The translations under genes and the position numbers were made by a program. A stretch of 64,000 nucleotides of DNA from Candidatus Limnocylindrales bacterium. GTDB taxonomy: Bacteria; Desulfobacterota; Binatia; UBA1149; CAITLU01. Positions within the stretch are counted from its first letter, which is position 1; each line of letters starts with the position of its first letter. Location: the NCBI GenBank assembly GCA_035571835.1, contig DATNBU010000045.1, positions 124,001 through 188,000 on the forward strand. Direction: 5' to 3'. The notes under the pieces are model-generated. The model was given only the letters and a program-made list of their open reading frames with translations. It had not been told where the DNA came from and ran no database searches. This document shows, piece by piece, positions 4,836-27,269 of this stretch.

Positions 4836-5372
4836 ATGGAATCCCGCTCGAAAGCGAAACGCAGCGATCCGTCTTCCGGTAAGAACGATCCGCCTTCCGC
4901 AAAGAAGAAGAAGGCTCCCGGCGCGAACCACTCCGGCGATGTGCCGGACGATTCCGATGCGGCCGACGCGACACTCGCGCTCGATCCCGGCTCGATGGAA
5001 GACGAAGAGATCGCGGCGTCGATCCGCGAACAGTTTCGCGAAGAAGTCGGCGACGATCTGGCCGGTGTCGCGGTGACGTGCCGCCGCGGATGCATCACGC
5101 TCGTCGGCGAGGTTGCAAGCGAGGAGCTTCGCGAGGTCGCGCGGCTCATCGTCGAGGACGAGAACGGCCTCGAGGTCCACGACCGGATTCTCGTCAGTCA
5201 GATCGCGGGAGAATCTCCGGGCGAAACCGAAGAAGGCGAACGGCCGCTTCCGGATGACATCCGGATCGTGCAGGACGACATCGACGCCGAGGACGTCTCG
5301 GGAGACATTCTCGAAGTGGAAGATGAAGGCGTCGGATTCATGGCTCCGTCGCGTCCGGTTCCGGAACGCTGA
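4836..5372 (+). CDS. BON-domain protein
   Basis: The protein has 178 residues. The N-terminal 50 residues are low-complexity, lysine- and serine-rich and probably disordered. A single BON domain spans about 56-120 (DEEIAASIREQF...CITLVGEV...ARLIVEDENGLEVHDRILV). An acidic tail follows. There is no signal peptide, unlike OsmY-type BON proteins, so a cytoplasmic location is likely. GGAGGT lies 5 bases before the ATG. The gene converges on the HxlR-type regulator and their ends overlap by 35 bp. BON domains bind membranes or ligands; the role here is unknown. Confidence 0.8.
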   Translation: MESRSKAKRSDPSSGKNDPPSAKKKKAPGANHSGDVPDDSDAADATLALDPGSMEDEEIAASIREQFREEVGDDLAGVAVTCRRGCITLVGEVASEELREVARLIVEDENGLEVHDRILVSQIAGESPGETEEGERPLPDDIRIVQDDIDAEDVSGDILEVEDEGVGFMAPSRPVPER

Positions 5373-5895
5373 GGACGGGTTTCTTCGTGCGGCGGCTTCG
5401 AGCCGTCGCAACGAATCCCGCCGCCAGCTCCGGCGTAAGGCCGGGTCCAGGTTCGAGATCGACGTCGTTCCAGCGAAGCGGCTGATCGCACTTCGGACAT
5501 CGGCTCTCGGCGCGTCCGACATGGCCGCAGGGCTTGTGACGGATCAGCAGCGGCGGGCCGGCGCCCTTGTCGAGCCAGCGGTCTCCCCACCGAAGCAGCG
5601 CCAGCATCACGTCGAAAAAGTCGGAACCCTTCTCGGTCAGCAGGTACTCGAACCGCCTGGGCTTGTCCTGGTACTGGCGGCGCTCGAGGAGGCCTTCGGC
5701 GACCAGGCGTGTGAGCCGCTGGGTCAGTACGTTGCGGCCGATCGAAAGCCCTTTCTGGAACTCTTCGAACCGCGTCGCGCCGAGGAACGCCTCGCGGATG
5801 ACGAGCGGCGTCCACCAGTCGCCGAGCAGGTCGACGGTCCGCGCTACCGAGCAGGGCCATTCATGGAACGGGGTTCTTTTCACCACGGACTGCAT
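5338..5895 (-). CDS. HxlR-family transcriptional regulator
   Basis: The protein is 185 residues from the ATG at 5895 (MQSVVKRTPFHEWPCSVAR). The HxlR winged helix spans about 10-105: CSVARTVDLLGDWWTPLVIREAFLG, then FEEFQKGLSIGRNVLTQRL and YLLTEKGSDF. It keeps the single N-terminal Cys used for redox or electrophile sensing in some members. The C-terminal 75 residues add CGH...CPKCDQPL, a possible zinc-binding pair common in longer HxlR proteins. It is transcribed away from an NTF2/SRPBCC operon across a 92-bp region with a dyad, so it probably controls that operon and itself. Confidence 0.9.
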   Translation of the reverse strand: MQSVVKRTPFHEWPCSVARTVDLLGDWWTPLVIREAFLGATRFEEFQKGLSIGRNVLTQRLTRLVAEGLLERRQYQDKPRRFEYLLTEKGSDFFDVMLALLRWGDRWLDKGAGPPLLIRHKPCGHVGRAESRCPKCDQPLRWNDVDLEPGPGLTPELAAGFVATARSRRTKKPVLSVPEPDATEP

Positions 5896-5900
5896 AGCAG

Positions 5901-5947
5901 GTTGCACAAGTGAACGCACTCTGCAACTATCAGTCTCGCTAGTGAAC
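5901..5947. promoter_or_regulatory. Candidate HxlR operator
   Basis: GTTGCA (5901-5906) and TGCAAC (5922-5927) form an imperfect dyad, GTTGCACAAGTG against the complement GTTGCAGAGTG. AGTGAAC occurs twice, at 5909-5915 and 5941-5947, 32 bp or about three helical turns apart. Both lie between the divergent starts at 5895 and 5988, as expected for a HxlR dimer site. Confidence 0.45.
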
Positions 5948-5987
5948 TGACTACGTTCTGCCGGGACGACGTCCCGAAGGAGGCCGC

Positions 5988-6443
5988 ATGAACCCGCAAG
6001 ATTCCTCCCAGGCATTCGCCGCCTTTGCCGAAGCGTTCGAGGTCGGTTTCGCGTCGCGAGACTGGACCCCGGTGGACCGCATGATGACCGACGACGTGGT
6101 CTGGTCGCTGGCCGAGCTGCCGCCGCCGGTCGGAGGCACCCATGTCGGACGACAACAGGCCATCGATGCGATCCGCCTCAGCACCGACACGTTCGACCGT
6201 CGTTTCGACCGGCGCGAGCCGGTGATCACCGACGGTCCGCGCGAGATTCCCGGCGGCATCCACATGACGTGGGCCGTGACGTACACGCGCGACGGTCTGC
6301 CGCCGTTCGTGCTGCTCGGCGAAGAATGGGACCTGTTCCGTGACGGCAAGCTCGAGGTGCATCGCGAACGCGTCCACAACCTGGCCGAGATGTGGACGTA
6401 CGTGGCCAATCACAACGACCGGCTCGCTCCGGTCGCGCCCTGA
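5988..6443 (+). CDS. SnoaL/NTF2-like protein
   Basis: The protein has 151 residues with an NTF2-like cone fold pattern: helix FAAFAEAFEVGFASRDW, then VDRMMTDDVVWSLAE, a GGTHVGRQQAIDAI segment and strands HMTWAVTYTRDG and GEEWDLFRDGKL. AAGGAGG lies 4 bases before the ATG. It is first in a three-gene operon divergent from the HxlR gene. Such proteins are often small-molecule isomerases or hydrolases, or bind a ligand. The substrate cannot be read from the sequence. A related protein is encoded at 48189-48596. Confidence 0.8.
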   Translation: MNPQDSSQAFAAFAEAFEVGFASRDWTPVDRMMTDDVVWSLAELPPPVGGTHVGRQQAIDAIRLSTDTFDRRFDRREPVITDGPREIPGGIHMTWAVTYTRDGLPPFVLLGEEWDLFRDGKLEVHRERVHNLAEMWTYVANHNDRLAPVAP

Positions 6444-6457
6444 CGCGGAGGCTTGCG

Positions 6458-6967
6458 ATGATCGTCCGATGGATCACCGGCCTCGTGTATTCGCGAGGAC
6501 TGCGCGCGCTCGAGCGCGGAGACCTCGATTCGCTGCTCGCCAACTTCTCCGAGAGCTGCACGCTCACGTTCGCCGGTGACTCGCCGCTTGGCGCGAAGCT
6601 TTCGACAGCGGCGGAGCTCCGCCTGTGGTTCGAGCGCTTTCGGCGGCTGCTTCCCGAGCCGCGCTTCGAAATCCGCCGGCTCGTGATCAGCGGGCCTCCG
6701 TGGAACCAGCGCCTGGCGTCGCATGCGATCATTCGCAGCACCGTCGGCGGCGAGCCGTACGAGAATCAGTTCGGGCATTTCCTCACGCTGCGCTGGGGAA
6801 AAGTCGTCGACGACCTGATCATCGAGGATACGCAGATGTGGGAGCGCGCATGCCGCCGCCTCATCGCCGCGGGTGTCGACGAAGCGGCGGAAAAACCCAT
6901 GTGGCCGGTGGCGGTCCCTGCGCGGTCGTATGCGACGGCGCCCGCTGCGGCTGCCGCGTCTCGATGA
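6458..6967 (+). CDS. Second NTF2-like protein of the operon
   Basis: The protein is 169 residues from the ATG at 6458, which has GGAGG 6 bases upstream. It shows ALERGDLDSLLANFSESCTLTFAGD, then LRLWFERFRRLLPEPRFEIRRLVISG and a late strand YENQFGHFLTLRWGKVVDDLIIEDTQ, typical of SnoaL-like folds. It begins 14 bp after the preceding gene and its TGA overlaps the next start (ATGA at 6964). Paired NTF2-like proteins suggest a small-molecule modification step; no substrate is evident. Confidence 0.75.
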   Translation: MIVRWITGLVYSRGLRALERGDLDSLLANFSESCTLTFAGDSPLGAKLSTAAELRLWFERFRRLLPEPRFEIRRLVISGPPWNQRLASHAIIRSTVGGEPYENQFGHFLTLRWGKVVDDLIIEDTQMWERACRRLIAAGVDEAAEKPMWPVAVPARSYATAPAAAAASR

Positions 6968-21851: not shown

Positions 21852-22586
21852 CTACTTCGGTGCTTCCGCGGGTGCCGCGACCGGCGCCGCGGCTCCGGCC
21901 AGCTTCCAGTCGAACGTGTACATGCGCATCGAGTGCGCCGCGTAGTCCTGGATCAGCATTTTCGTCGGACGCGGCCGCGAGCCGACCATGACCCAGTCCT
22001 TGTCCGTGCGGATGCGGACGAGGTTGTTGAACGTGTCCTTGTAGTACTTGATCATGTGCGGGACGAGCTTGGCCTTGTCGAACGTGACCACGTACAGCGC
22101 GTACGGCCGCCCCGGATCCGCGTACAGCGAAACCGTCTGTTCGAGCGTGTTCTCGTCCGACGTCAGCGCGCGGCCGTAATCGGTTTTCCAGAACGGAAAG
22201 AAATCCATGCCGCGCAGGTCGGTGCCGGCGAGCGGCTCGTCGACGCCGAGCTTCGTTGACGCGGCGCCGGTCCTGGTGACGGCCTTGCCGTCTTTCCATG
22301 CGAGCGGCGTTTCCGATTTCCAGCCGGTCCCGGGCTGTTCAAAGACGACCGTTCCGCCGCCCGCGGGATCGATGACGAGGTGCGCCTTCGACGTGGTGCC
22401 GTCGGCGTCCTTGATCGTCACATCGGCTTCGACCTTCTCGTTGGCCGTCGACATGCGTTCGGCACGCTCGAGAAATGCAGCGAGGTCCCCCGCTTGGGCG
22501 GGTCGCAATACGGCCAGAGTTATGCCCGCGGCCAGAAGAAGTACGGCCGGGACCGGACGGACGGGACGCAACCGATGGATTGGCAT
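21852..22586 (-). CDS. LolA-like outer-membrane lipoprotein-sorting protein
   Basis: The protein has 244 residues with a signal peptide (about 1-32, AVLLLAAGITLAV...AQA). The rest fits the LolA/LolB-like half-barrel: LAAFLERAERM, EADVTIKDADGTTSKAHLVIDP, then GMDFFPFWKTDYGRAL and LYVVTFDKAKLVPHMIKYY. It resembles the group annotated as lipoprotein-sorting proteins outside the classical lolA locus. It is periplasmic; cargo is unknown. An Ala/Pro-rich tail is likely flexible. Confidence 0.75.
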   Translation of the reverse strand: MPIHRLRPVRPVPAVLLLAAGITLAVLRPAQAGDLAAFLERAERMSTANEKVEADVTIKDADGTTSKAHLVIDPAGGGTVVFEQPGTGWKSETPLAWKDGKAVTRTGAASTKLGVDEPLAGTDLRGMDFFPFWKTDYGRALTSDENTLEQTVSLYADPGRPYALYVVTFDKAKLVPHMIKYYKDTFNNLVRIRTDKDWVMVGSRPRPTKMLIQDYAAHSMRMYTFDWKLAGAAAPVAAPAEAPK

Positions 22587-22929: not shown

Positions 22930-24744
22930 ATGATCCAGCCGGGAAGAGCGCTCGTCGCTTCCTTTTTGCTCGTCGCAACCGTGGCCGTCGTTACGGCGCG
23001 GGCGGACGATTCTGACGGCGCGTCCGCGACGGTCCCCGTGCAGACCAACATCGTCAACGGGATCCCGACTCACCTGCAGCCGACGACCGGTGCGCTCCTG
23101 TTCGTCGGACCGGATCTGAAGAACCAGTTTCTCGATTGTTCGGCGGTGCTGATCGGCTGCCGCACGGCGCTGACCGCCGCGCACTGTGTCTGCGAAACGG
23201 CGAACAATGCCGCCGAGTGCCTGAACGATCTTCCGAATCTCGACGTGGCCGATCTTCGCGTGTTCTTCCAGCACAGCGGTTTTCATCACGTTCGCGAGAT
23301 CTACATCGATCCGGCCTACGTCGCGGGAGTCGGCGGCGACCTGGCCATGCTGCGACTGTCCGAGCTCGTCACCGGCATCGAGCCGTCGCCTTATCATCGC
23401 GGCTTTCCGACCTCGCCGGACCACGGAACGCCGGGCCTGATCGCCGGCTTTGGCGACAGCGGCTTCGACAACCTCGACGAAGCCATCAAGCGCGTCGGAT
23501 CGATCGAGACTGCGGCGTGCGTTCCCGGCACCGGCGTATTCGAGCCGGCCAACATCTGCTGGAACTTCACCGGCGCGGTTTCCAAGCCGGGCGACGAAGC
23601 CAATCTGTGCCTCGCCGACGACGGCGGCCCGCTGTTCATCGACTACGGCAACGGTCCGGAAGTGGCGGGCATCCATGCCGGCGGCGGCAGCACATGCGAC
23701 GTCGCCGGATATTCGTACGACACCAACGTCGCGCGAGCGCGCGACTGGATCGACGAAGTCGGAGGCCTCGACGTCAAGCGCGACCAGTGCAGCGAGCTCG
23801 GCGAAGTCGGCGAGCCGTGGGTCAAGGTGCAGGGCGGTGAGGGCAACCTTCCGAAGAACGAGGACGAGAAGCTGTTCTCGTTCATCGTTCCCGAAGATGC
23901 GCTCGTGCTGCGCGTATCGGTCAACGGCGATACCGATCAGAACGGCGACTACGACATGTTCGTCGGACTCGGCCAGAAAATCCCGACGCGTCTCGACAAC
24001 GACTGCCAGGCGCGCGGGGTCGGCCAGTTCGGCTTCTGCTCGTTCGAAGAGACGGGGACCGATCACGTCAATGTCCTGATCCGCCGCGCGCGTCCGCGCA
24101 TAGGCACGGGTCACAGCCGTTTCCAGGTCACCGTCACGGCGTATCAGCAGAAGCCGCCGGCGGACGATCCGCCGCGTGGTCCCGACAACCTGCGTTATTC
24201 CGTACGGGGTCCGGGCCTTCGCACGCTCACGTGGATCGACGATTCGAAGAACGAAACCGGCTTCGAGCTGCAGCGCCGGCCCGGAACCGATCCGCTCGCC
24301 GCGTTCACCAGGCGCGCGACCATCAAGGCCGACAAGCAGCTTTATCTCGAAAGCATTCCCGACGACCAGGTCTTCACGTACCGCATTCGCGCGTTCAACG
24401 GTTTCGGCTCGTCGGAATGGTCGAACATCTGCGTCGTGAATCTGCCTCGCATGCACCGTCCGACCAGGCTGCACGCGACGGCGCTGACTCCGGATGCAGT
24501 CACGCTGAAATGGCGCGACAACAGCAACGGCGAGAGCGCGATGGAGCTTCAGCGCCGCAAGTTCGGCTCGCTTGCATGGAAGGCGATCAAGGTGCTTCCG
24601 TCGGATACGAAGGGCTACGTCGATACCGGGATTACCGAAGGTCAGACCTACCAGTACCGCGTGCGTGCGCGCGGCTTCCTCGACGAGTGCATCCCGCACT
24701 CGCGGTTCTCGAACGTTCTCGAGGTGACGGTTCCCGCGCCCTGA
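22930..24744 (+). CDS. Secreted trypsin-fold protein without catalytic serine, with PPC-like and two FN3-like domains
   Basis: The protein has 604 residues with a signal peptide (about 1-25). The S1 trypsin fold (41-285) begins IVNGIPTH and keeps His85 (LTAAHC) and Asp137 (GGDLAML). The normal GDSGGP is ADDGGP: codon 231 (GAC at 23620) encodes Asp where Ser is required. Peptide hydrolysis is therefore unlikely, and this is a serine-protease homologue unless the Asp is a sequencing error. A PPC-like domain (about 295-410, Asp-rich DTDQNGDYDMF) and two fibronectin III-like domains (about 415-510 and 515-604) follow. It probably acts outside the cell as a binding or adhesion protein. Confidence 0.85.
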   Translation: MIQPGRALVASFLLVATVAVVTARADDSDGASATVPVQTNIVNGIPTHLQPTTGALLFVGPDLKNQFLDCSAVLIGCRTALTAAHCVCETANNAAECLNDLPNLDVADLRVFFQHSGFHHVREIYIDPAYVAGVGGDLAMLRLSELVTGIEPSPYHRGFPTSPDHGTPGLIAGFGDSGFDNLDEAIKRVGSIETAACVPGTGVFEPANICWNFTGAVSKPGDEANLCLADDGGPLFIDYGNGPEVAGIHAGGGSTCDVAGYSYDTNVARARDWIDEVGGLDVKRDQCSELGEVGEPWVKVQGGEGNLPKNEDEKLFSFIVPEDALVLRVSVNGDTDQNGDYDMFVGLGQKIPTRLDNDCQARGVGQFGFCSFEETGTDHVNVLIRRARPRIGTGHSRFQVTVTAYQQKPPADDPPRGPDNLRYSVRGPGLRTLTWIDDSKNETGFELQRRPGTDPLAAFTRRATIKADKQLYLESIPDDQVFTYRIRAFNGFGSSEWSNICVVNLPRMHRPTRLHATALTPDAVTLKWRDNSNGESAMELQRRKFGSLAWKAIKVLPSDTKGYVDTGITEGQTYQYRVRARGFLDECIPHSRFSNVLEVTVPAP

Positions 24745-24756
24745 TTGCGGCGTTTA

Positions 24757-24780
24757 CGGCCGGCCGGTCACGGCCGGCCG
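24757..24780. terminator. Hairpin between convergent genes
   Basis: CGGCCGGCCG (24757-24766), loop GTCA, and CGGCCGGCCG (24771-24780): a perfect 10-bp stem. It overlaps the last codons of the minus-strand gene, whose stop lies in the loop. No T-run on either side; a likely barrier between converging transcripts. Confidence 0.6.
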
Positions 24781-25622
24781 GATCGGAGCGCGTCTTCGAT
24801 GATGGCGCACATCTCGTCCATCGAACCGGGTTTCGCGACCAGGTGCCGCACGCCGGCTTCGCGAGCCTTCTCGCGCATTTCGTCAGTGACGTATCCCGAC
24901 GTCACCATGACCGGGAGGTCGGAGCGAAGCATCGAAGTCTCCGCCGCGACCTGCAGGCCCGAGATCCTCGGCATGTTGTAGTCGGTGACGACGAGATCGA
25001 ATCCGGAAGGGTTTTCCTTCAGCGCGGAGAGGGCTTTTTCGGGTTGCACGAAGCCGCTCACGCGGTAGCCGAGGCCGCGAAGCATGCGTGATGCGAGGTT
25101 GACCATCGCTTCCTCGTCGTCGAGATAAAGAATCGATCCGCGCGCTTCGGCGCCGGCGTTGGGCCTGGAATCCGAAGGTCTGGAGGCCGCTGCCTCAGGC
25201 GTGCCGGCGGGATGCGCGCCGGTCACCGACATATGGACGCCGATTCCGTCGGGCAAGGATGCACGCAGGATCCGCGTGAGGTCCTCGGCGATGGTTTTCC
25301 ATTCGTTCGGGTCGGCGGCGATCGTACGCCCTCGACGCAGCGCAAGGATCTGCTCGACCAGTCGAATGCCGTGGCGCCCGGCCTTGGTGATCTCTTCGAG
25401 ACTCTTCCTGACGGAGCTCGACAGGCCCGGGTCCATGGATGCGAGCTCGGCGTTGCCGAGAACGATTCCGAGGATGTTGTTGAGCTCGTGTACGACGCCG
25501 CCGGCGAGCGAGTCGAGAGCCGGGGCTGCGCCCCGTTCGGCCTGCTCCGATGGCGGCTCGTGTCCTCCGCGCGCGTCGCGAGGTGTCCCGGAGCCTTCGC
25601 GTTTCGGGTCGTCGTTCCCCAC
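24768..25622 (-). CDS. HisKA-REC protein lacking the kinase ATPase domain
   Basis: The protein has 284 residues from a GTG with AAGGAG 7 bases upstream; an upstream TTG frame has no ribosome site. The HisKA dimerisation/phosphoacceptor domain (about 35-100) has His45 in GGVVHELNNILG. An NtrB-like bridge (IAEDLTRILRASLPDGIGVHM, to about 131) leads straight into a Pro/Ala/Ser linker. A complete receiver domain (164-280) follows, with Asp169-Glu170, Asp214 (VVTDYNMP) and Lys264 (VAKP). The HATPase domain that normally follows is absent. It could act as a phosphotransfer intermediate or a kinase partner. Confidence 0.85.
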   Translation of the reverse strand: MGNDDPKREGSGTPRDARGGHEPPSEQAERGAAPALDSLAGGVVHELNNILGIVLGNAELASMDPGLSSSVRKSLEEITKAGRHGIRLVEQILALRRGRTIAADPNEWKTIAEDLTRILRASLPDGIGVHMSVTGAHPAGTPEAAASRPSDSRPNAGAEARGSILYLDDEEAMVNLASRMLRGLGYRVSGFVQPEKALSALKENPSGFDLVVTDYNMPRISGLQVAAETSMLRSDLPVMVTSGYVTDEMREKAREAGVRHLVAKPGSMDEMCAIIEDALRSGRP

Positions 25623-25758
25623 CGGCGTGCTCCTTCCCTCCCGGAGACGGCTGCGAATCCAAGGAGCACAACTACGCTTCGGTGAATGCTGACGCGAGTG
25701 CCGGCGCAATGCCGGGCGCGGTCGAGCATCGGCGACCGATGCATGAGCCGCAATCGGG

Positions 25759-27195
25759 CTACATCACGGCGAAGTAGTTCGTTACGGCGAACTCGACGGC
25801 ATCGTCGGTCATTGCCGGCGGCACGTCGTGGTAGCTGCAGTAGCTTCGGATCTGAAGCATCAGGTCGCGCGGATGGCAGCAGCGCATCGGGCGGCCCGTT
25901 GCGACGAAATAGTTCTCGATGAGGCGATCGATTCGCTCCGGCGTGGGATCGATCCCCAGTCCGGGCGCGACGACGCCGCAGATGCGGCGAAACTGATCCG
26001 GCGTCGGATCGGTGACCTCGATCTTGTACGGGAGCCGGCGCAGGAACGCCTCATCGACCAGCTCGCGCGGGATCAGATTGGTCGAGAAAACCACGAGCTG
26101 GTCGAACGCGACCTGGATTTTCTTGCCGGTCGGCAGCTTCTGGAAATCGAAGCGTTTTTCGAGCGGTACGATCCAGCGGTTCAGGAGCTCGGCCACCGGC
26201 ATCGCCTGGCGCCCGAAATCGTCGATGAGCAGCACGCCGCAATTGCTCTTCATCTGCAGCGGCGCCTCGCTCACGTTGCTGACCGGATCGTGACGAAGCT
26301 CGAGCTGATCCATCGTAAGCTCACCGCCGACGACTACGGTCGGGCGACGGATGCGGACCCAGCGTGCGTCTTCGAGCGGCTCGCCGAGCACAGGAGAATC
26401 GTCGTTGGTCACTTCCTGGTGCAGCACGGGATCGAAAAGACGGATGCATACGCCGTCGGCGAGGATCGTGCGCGGAATCCACAGATCGCTTCCGAAGCAG
26501 CGAACGAGCCGTTCGGCGATGCTGGTCTTGCCGTTGCCCGGCGGGCCGTAAAGGAACATCCCGCGGCCGGCGTTGACGGCCGGACCGAGCCTTTCGATCA
26601 TCTCGGGCTGCAGCGTCATGTCGGCGAACGCTTCGCGCAGATGTTCCGCGCCGATGCGCTGGAGAGTCAGACTTTGCGCTGCCACAGACGCAAGGTAGTC
26701 CTCCAGCGGCACCGGCGCTGTCTCGGAATACGTGCACGTCAGCATATAGCGCCGCGCGCGTTCGGCGCCGGCGTCGGTCAGCACGTATTCGTAATCTCCG
26801 GCGGCAGCATTGCGCTTGTACGCGAGGAACAGATCGTTCTTCAGCTGGGAGAGGATCGGCTCGACCATGCGGTACGGCAATCCGGTGGCGTGACCGAGGC
26901 GCCGGCCGCACGATGCGCCGCGAACCAGAAGGAAACGGCAGAGGAGCTCTTCGACGAAGTCGCGCGACAGTCCGGCGTCTTCGAGGCTCGTCGGTTTGCG
27001 CGGCCAGAACCCGGCGACGTCGCTGGTGCGTCTGGCGAGCTGGGCAGCCGCGACTGCACTGAGACCGCCACTGGTGTCCTCGGCGTCGGGCGGCGTCCAC
27101 GCCGGCTGCGTCTCGAGAGGACGCGTGCTCATGCCGGTTACAGATACGGCGGGACTGACGTCGTCCAGAAGTGACGAGAAACGGGCGATGCTCAT
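25759..27195 (-). CDS. AAA+ ATPase with N-terminal winged-helix-like region
   Basis: The protein is 478 residues from the ATG at 27195. Residues about 75-150 look like a winged helix (LSRDFVEELLCRFLL...GLPYRMVEPILSQLKND...YVLTDAGAERARRYM). The AAA+ core has Walker A GPPGNGKTS (217-225), Walker B GVLLIDDFG (320-328) and a sensor strand VVFSTNLIPRELVDEAFLRRLPYKIEV that includes arginine-finger candidates. Similar ATPases are annotated without function. The gene is upstream of the HisKA-REC gene, same strand, 136 bp apart. A 65-codon frame lies 74 bp upstream. Role unknown. Confidence 0.85.
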   Translation of the reverse strand: MSIARFSSLLDDVSPAVSVTGMSTRPLETQPAWTPPDAEDTSGGLSAVAAAQLARRTSDVAGFWPRKPTSLEDAGLSRDFVEELLCRFLLVRGASCGRRLGHATGLPYRMVEPILSQLKNDLFLAYKRNAAAGDYEYVLTDAGAERARRYMLTCTYSETAPVPLEDYLASVAAQSLTLQRIGAEHLREAFADMTLQPEMIERLGPAVNAGRGMFLYGPPGNGKTSIAERLVRCFGSDLWIPRTILADGVCIRLFDPVLHQEVTNDDSPVLGEPLEDARWVRIRRPTVVVGGELTMDQLELRHDPVSNVSEAPLQMKSNCGVLLIDDFGRQAMPVAELLNRWIVPLEKRFDFQKLPTGKKIQVAFDQLVVFSTNLIPRELVDEAFLRRLPYKIEVTDPTPDQFRRICGVVAPGLGIDPTPERIDRLIENYFVATGRPMRCCHPRDLMLQIRSYCSYHDVPPAMTDDAVEFAVTNYFAVM

Positions 27196-27269
27196 TGGCT
27201 TTCCCTGAGTATGGAGCGAGTTTTCGTGGGATACGTCCGCGAATACCGCGAGACGCATCCATCGAACGC

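Follow-up and report, generated by a model that had tools for sequence, protein, structure and literature searches.

Trypsin-fold (S1) pseudoproteases have been described in animals, where they serve as ligands, cofactors, decoys or scaffolds (PMC13194640; PMC5718610). Protein Z, HGF, haptoglobin, the inactivated paralogues of the scabies mite and insect homologues such as spheroide belong to this kind; in these papers they share an S1 fold with a broken active site and function by binding, and in spheroide the serine is replaced by Gly (PMC5718610). The bacterial pseudoproteases named in PMC13194640 have the subtilisin fold. They include the clostridial CspC and CspA, in which the triad is intact or partial. 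Another paper (PMC3237569) concerns rhomboid pseudoproteases. Searches of open-licence papers, listed with the beginnings of their abstracts, showed no bacterial trypsin-fold pseudoprotease with Asp at position 195.

The window considered here, by which we mean the whole stretch of 64,000 nucleotides that was analyzed, carries a gene for a trypsin-fold protein with Asp in place of the catalytic Ser. The window protein shares the S1 fold and the broken active site with the animal pseudoproteases and would likewise function by binding, whereas those proteins belong to animal lineages. It would be a bacterial pseudoprotease as CspC and CspA are, although the latter have a subtilisin-like (S8) fold and not the trypsin fold. 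The bacterial S1 structures matched by its sequence were those of the secreted serine proteases VesC and VesB from Vibrio (PDB 6bqm and 4lk4, E 7.2e-7 and 1.9e-4, respectively), which are deposited as proteases, in contrast to the window protein with its Asp at 195 and its C-terminal fibronectin type III (FN3) domains. We consider it likely that the gene encodes a vertically inherited S1 pseudoprotease that is secreted, has no catalytic activity and acts by binding.

Gene, domain layout and locus

The features of the gene are collected in Table 1. Chymotrypsin numbering (57, 102, 195 and so on) was assigned from motifs.

Table 1. Features of the pseudoprotease gene and its upstream neighbor (positions in the window).
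Feature	Position	Strand	Remarks
Upstream divergent neighbor, weakly LolA-like	21852..22586	-	E 3.9e-4, under cut-off; marks the orthologous locus
Pseudoprotease gene	22930..24744	+	604 aa; ATG start, stop included; Pfam Trypsin and fn3 over cut-off
Likely signal peptide	22930..23004	+	about residues 1-25; judged by eye from the sequence
Asn40 (position 15) and Ile-Val-Asn-Gly (residues 41-44)	23047..23061	+	activation Arg15 lost in the window protein, Ile16 kept
Trypsin-fold (S1) pseudo-catalytic domain	23050..23781	+	residues 41-284; AlphaFold2 model, VIA-align Z about 25 to S1 proteases
His85 (= His57)	23182..23184	+	kept in 6/6 orthologues
Asp137 (= Asp102)	23338..23340	+	kept in 6/6 orthologues
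Ala229 (= Gly193, oxyanion hole)	23614..23616	+	Asp clade A1 K3 G2; Ser group G61 A9
Asp231 (= Ser195)	23620..23622	+	GAC; among the six orthologues GAC in 5, GAT in 1
His249-Ala250 (= 213-214)	23674..23679	+	His213 in 5/6, Ser214 kept in 1/6; Ser group T 57/70, S 66/70
Middle domain, weakly PPC-like	23797..24153	+	residues 290-408; beta strands in a low-confidence model
C-terminal fibronectin type III pair	24163..24741	+	residues 412-604; fn3 in 6/6 orthologues

The Pfam Trypsin profile matched residues 67-274 of the window protein with 51.5 bits (cut-off 20.6, E 1.5e-13), and the fn3 profile matched two stretches with 28.7 bits (cut-off 25, E 1.5e-6). By fold and descent the protein belongs to S1 and Pfam Trypsin, since its profile match exceeds the curated cut-off and its predicted fold is the double barrel. 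A preliminary description of this DNA had listed PPC-like and FN3-like domains. The FN3 part of this claim stands, and the PPC part is weak: the window protein had no PPC match in Pfam at E ≤ 1, and PF04151 (PPC) matched two of the six orthologues with a best E of 7.6e-5, a value given for the protein and not for a place within it. Judging from its N-terminus, its domains and the constraint on it, the protein is probably secreted. No sigma-70-like promoter was found around the gene.

An AlphaFold2 model of residues 40-293, built from 26 alignment rows, revealed a confident trypsin fold with a pLDDT of 87.9 and a pTM of 0.88. The matches listed when Foldseek was run with this model were S1 proteases (best E 6.5e-15). 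In VIA-align, 1000 of 1000 chains were found at Z ≥ 8, and the best match showed a Z-score of 25.4 and an rmsd of 2.7 over 219 residues, with the top rows tied. The full-length model was built from four rows and had a mean pLDDT of 49.8, with residues 1-295 under 50, and its fold search was informative for the FN3 part only.

The family sample comprised seven genomes of the uncultured phylum Binatota, and an orthologue was present in six of them, counting the window's own; three of the orthologues come from metagenome-assembled genomes. A search of 98 relatives revealed full-length matches in the five other family genomes at 65, 53, 52, 46 and 41% identity. When 148 genomes of the class were searched with a profile, the six orthologues scored 952-1042 bits, against at most 314 for the others among the matches listed. 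The orthologue is absent from the seventh family genome (G002), which contains weaker relatives only. A homologue of the LolA-like neighbor, oriented alike, is found upstream at all five other loci; it directly adjoins the gene in G001, G006 and G003, and it is separated from it by 3-4 kb in G005 and G004. An SbcD-like gene lies immediately downstream of the orthologue in G005, G006 and G003 and is more distant in the window. SbcD-like and LolA-like frames directly adjoin in G002 (L124, about 4867-6952, G002:C46), leaving no space for a 1.8 kb gene, and in its congener G006 the pseudoprotease gene sits between the SbcD-like and LolA-like genes. Because of the shared neighborhood and the clean absence from G002, the history of the locus, as read from sequence, is one of vertical descent with one loss. 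The gene is dispensable in G002, since that family member lacks it.

Two frames on the minus strand were also read beyond the gene. The first (24771-25709) encodes a 313-aa protein in which a receiver domain follows a HisKA domain. An ATPase domain was not matched at E ≤ 0.001, so that this kinase-like two-component protein seems to be without its catalytic half. The second (25762-27258) encodes 499 aa with a P-loop-like stretch, GPPGNGKTS; it had no Pfam match at E ≤ 0.001, and a homologue occupies the same place in G001.

Descent and active-site residues

A maximum-likelihood tree was calculated from 76 rows, namely, the six Asp rows and 70 other homologues from the class (the Ser group). 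The tree excludes L006, which repeats the window, the first part of the split L059 gene, and the rows L080-L082, which are weak or truncated; L080 has Ser, and L081 and L082 end short of column 195. Residue 195 is Ser in 69 of the 70 other homologues and Ala in one, His57 is found in 69 (the remaining row, from a split gene, has a gap there), and Asp102 is found in all 70. We found that the six Asp rows form one clade (support 100/100) whose stem measures 0.78 changes per column, and that the sister of this clade consists of 12 Ser rows (join support 98/87). The change from Ser195 to Asp is best read as a single switch that predates the divergence of the sampled family members. The descent from a protease proposed in the preliminary description is well supported by this nesting of the Asp clade among rows with Ser or Ala, and the Ser in more distant homologues fits it. 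Ser in homologues, together with a corrected sequence, had been named as what would speak against an altered site; the orthologues have Asp, and only the more distant homologues have Ser. The 70 homologues share with the clade the trypsin domain, the N-terminal Ile-Val-Asn-Gly and conserved cysteines, with about 28-44% domain identity. In contrast, they have Ser195 in all rows except one, mostly have Ser214, Gly193 and Arg15, and do not have the FN3 pair.

Two other sites in the class were observed alongside. L049 946-1611 (+) in G019:C1 reads GDAGGP, with Ala at the catalytic Ser and with His and Asp retained; the active site was thus inactivated a second time within the class, independently of the Asp clade. 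In L059 (G051:C180), a Ser-group homologue is split over two frames by a frameshift or an assembly error.

As described earlier, His85 and Asp137 are retained and codon 231 encodes Asp in place of the catalytic Ser; the alignment of close homologues extended all three observations to the six orthologues, with Asp in 6/6 at the nucleophile column. The catalytic S1 triad Ser195-His57-Asp102 is thus incomplete throughout the clade. The motif at the nucleophile of the window protein is C-L-A-D-D-G-G-P, so residue 193 is altered as well, and the Gly193 and Ser214 of a catalytic S1 protease are both Ala. An S1 fold, a missing triad residue and conservation by selection make the protein a probable serine pseudoprotease. 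The earlier argument from base changes also held, as no Ser codon can be reached from GAC in fewer than two changes. The Ser codon is TCN in 69/69 Ser-bearing homologues, and TCN and GAY likewise differ by two changes or more.

All six Asp-clade rows retain Ile16, Asp194 and those cysteines that are conserved across the Ser group. In the Ser group, 67 columns consist of one residue in at least 85% of rows, and at 58 of them this residue is also the majority in the Asp clade; within the clade, 70 of the 244 domain positions are invariant. Position 15 (residue 40) is Arg in 55/70 Ser-group rows and N, D, S, N, R and K in the six Asp rows, and the Thr at residue 190 is kept in one of the six compared with 63/70 in the Ser group. 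The putative loss of catalysis is supported by the changes that most of the six show at 214, 193, 190 and 15. By count, Ser195 is lost in 6/6, Ser214 and residue 190 in 5/6, and Gly193 and the basic residue 15 in 4/6. In G004 and G003, the members on the deepest branch, Gly193 and a basic residue at 15 (Arg or Lys) are retained. Ser195 was therefore probably the first of the catalytic residues to be lost. Human protein Z also has Asp at 195, but its own His57 is lost as well, whereas His57 and Asp102 are both kept in the Binatota clade.

Selection on the trypsin domain was estimated by Nei-Gojobori counts with a custom script. Between the window and G001, dN was 0.198 and dS was 0.84, with a ratio of 0.24, and the Asp-type domains of G006 and G005 gave a dN/dS of 0.36. 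Intact Ser-type paralogues of the same genome pairs showed values of 0.37 (L002/L073), 0.30 (L068/L051) and 0.25 (L044/L061). Between G006 and G002, two closer pairs of the Ser type gave 0.13 and 0.14; these have no Asp counterpart. The trypsin domain had the lowest ratio within the protein in two of the three Asp pairs; the third, G004 and G003, was near saturation (dS 2-3) and gave no order among the domains. The altered domain is held about as tightly as the intact ones.

The FN3 pair was present in all six Asp proteins. A profile of this pair matched none of the 70 Ser-group open reading frames (best E 0.32), of which 63 have a complete C-terminus and seven are cut, and Pfam fn3 matched none of the ten Ser-type proteins scanned at E ≤ 0.1 (nine of the 12 sister rows and one other, L313). 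In the sister clade, eight of the nine proteins scanned (L314-L321 and L323) have a PPC domain over the cut-off in the C-terminal part, which in seven proteins comes to within some 20 residues of the terminus, and the stretch between the trypsin domain and the PPC domain had no Pfam match at E ≤ 0.1. We also observed small secreted-looking proteins with the same kind of FN3 pair and a C-terminal Cys-containing stretch, in open frames of 300-467 aa, at five places read in four family genomes (L125-L129, e.g., L126 1133-2533 (-) in the window's own genome). A possible source of the FN3 pair of the pseudoprotease is this group of small proteins.

Asp195 was also sought by pattern elsewhere. The pattern C-x-G-D-D-G-G-P matched 45 viral stretches, and 0/45 had a trypsin domain with Asp195; a further 116 stretches had been picked for Ser and are uninformative on the frequency of Asp195. 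In an evenly drawn set of 198 genomes from the phylum, without G001, G003, G004 and G006, a related pattern, which cannot match the Ala193 of the window protein, matched seven genomes, and the orthologue of G005 was the only one of these matches with a trypsin domain. The reversed pattern matched four genomes.

Proposed function and competing explanations

We propose that, in the ancestor of one Binatota family, an S1 protease underwent the change from Ser195 to Asp and gained a C-terminal FN3 pair, and that the gene would thereafter have been inherited at one locus. After export, the domain would adopt a mature-like trypsin fold, as expected because Ile16 and Asp194 are kept. An acyl-enzyme could not form because Ser195 is missing; the Asp195 carboxylate would face His57-Asp102, and an ion pair with His57 would close the nucleophile site. 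The cleft, changed at 190, 192, 193, 213 and 214, would be remodeled, and the cleft and surface may bind a ligand or a partner protein, or the cleft may simply be closed. The middle and FN3 domains could anchor or present the protein outside the cell. We infer that the protein is most likely without proteolytic activity, has an Asp-His ion pair and functions by binding; binding instead of cutting is favored because the catalytic residue was replaced long ago by Asp, which is kept in the closest relatives.

Several observations stand against this proposal. His57 and Asp102 are kept in all six orthologues although a pure binder would not need them, but this retention is weak evidence for a role because so many positions of the domain are invariant in the clade. 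Additionally, Gly193 persists in two of the six orthologues, Arg or Lys at 15 in two and Ser214 in one. The absence of the gene from G002 and the lack of a sigma-70-like promoter match around it are further points.

A special case of the binding pseudoprotease is a regulator that would serve as cofactor or decoy for active S1 paralogues of its own cell, the role that protein Z and insect serine protease homologues have in animals. Ser-type relatives are present in each of the six genomes, L002 of the window's genome has an intact motif, and regulatory pseudoproteases are an established class (PMC13194640). However, 0/6 scanned neighbors of the gene were proteases, and neither a serpin nor an ecotin match was found in the seven family genomes (serpin PF00079 in 0/7, with the control matched in 3/14). 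With neither matched in these genomes, a circuit like that of protein Z would have no home-grown inhibitor of these two families, and an inhibitor could come from outside the cell. We regard this special case as possible yet rather unlikely. The contig of G003 does encode a Trypsin-profile protein some 7 kb away from the gene, but this protein is of another type and has the motif GNSGGP.

In haloalkane dehalogenases and epoxide hydrolases, which have the alpha/beta-hydrolase fold, Asp is the nucleophile, and an active, non-proteolytic hydrolase could be imagined in which Asp195 plays this part in a trypsin fold, with His57-Asp102 kept and a new His213. Consistent with such an enzyme, His57, Asp102, Asp194 and Ile16 are kept in 6/6, Asp195 is fixed and not drifting, and His213 is present in 5/6, at a position that we take to be a pocket wall, as in trypsin. 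However, Gly193 is replaced in 4/6 (by Lys in three and Ala in one), Ser214 is replaced in 5/6, and residue 15 is Arg in 1/6. We consider this enzyme very improbable because the neighboring catalytic residues are lost too, so that the surroundings erode and not the nucleophile alone.

A decaying remnant without function would explain the loss of several catalytic residues and the clean absence from G002, but the frames are open over the match in all six genomes, and the dN/dS of the domain (0.24-0.36) is like that of intact paralogues. There is little chance that this explanation is correct. A TAG reported for G005 is the end of its open reading frame and not an internal stop. A local oddity of one strain was rejected, as the six Asp rows form one clade. 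Finally, a sequencing or assembly error at 23620-23622, already judged unlikely in the preliminary description, has nothing for it and is excluded for practical purposes because five other orthologues, from separate genomes and independent assemblies, carry Asp at the same column.

Meaning for the family

The window protein is of a known kind, an S1 pseudoprotease, found here in bacteria with a fixed His-Asp-Asp site; it is real, well conserved and most likely non-catalytic. An annotation based on the Trypsin profile alone could mislabel the gene as an active protease. The finding also raises the question of why His57 and Asp102 persist when residue 195 is Asp. It places a bacterial S1 case on one branch of the tree, where the sister clade is of the Ser type, two FN3 domains were gained in a coupled way, and a likely sequence of residue losses can be given. 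The clade may thus serve as a compact natural experiment in the conversion of a protease into a binding protein.
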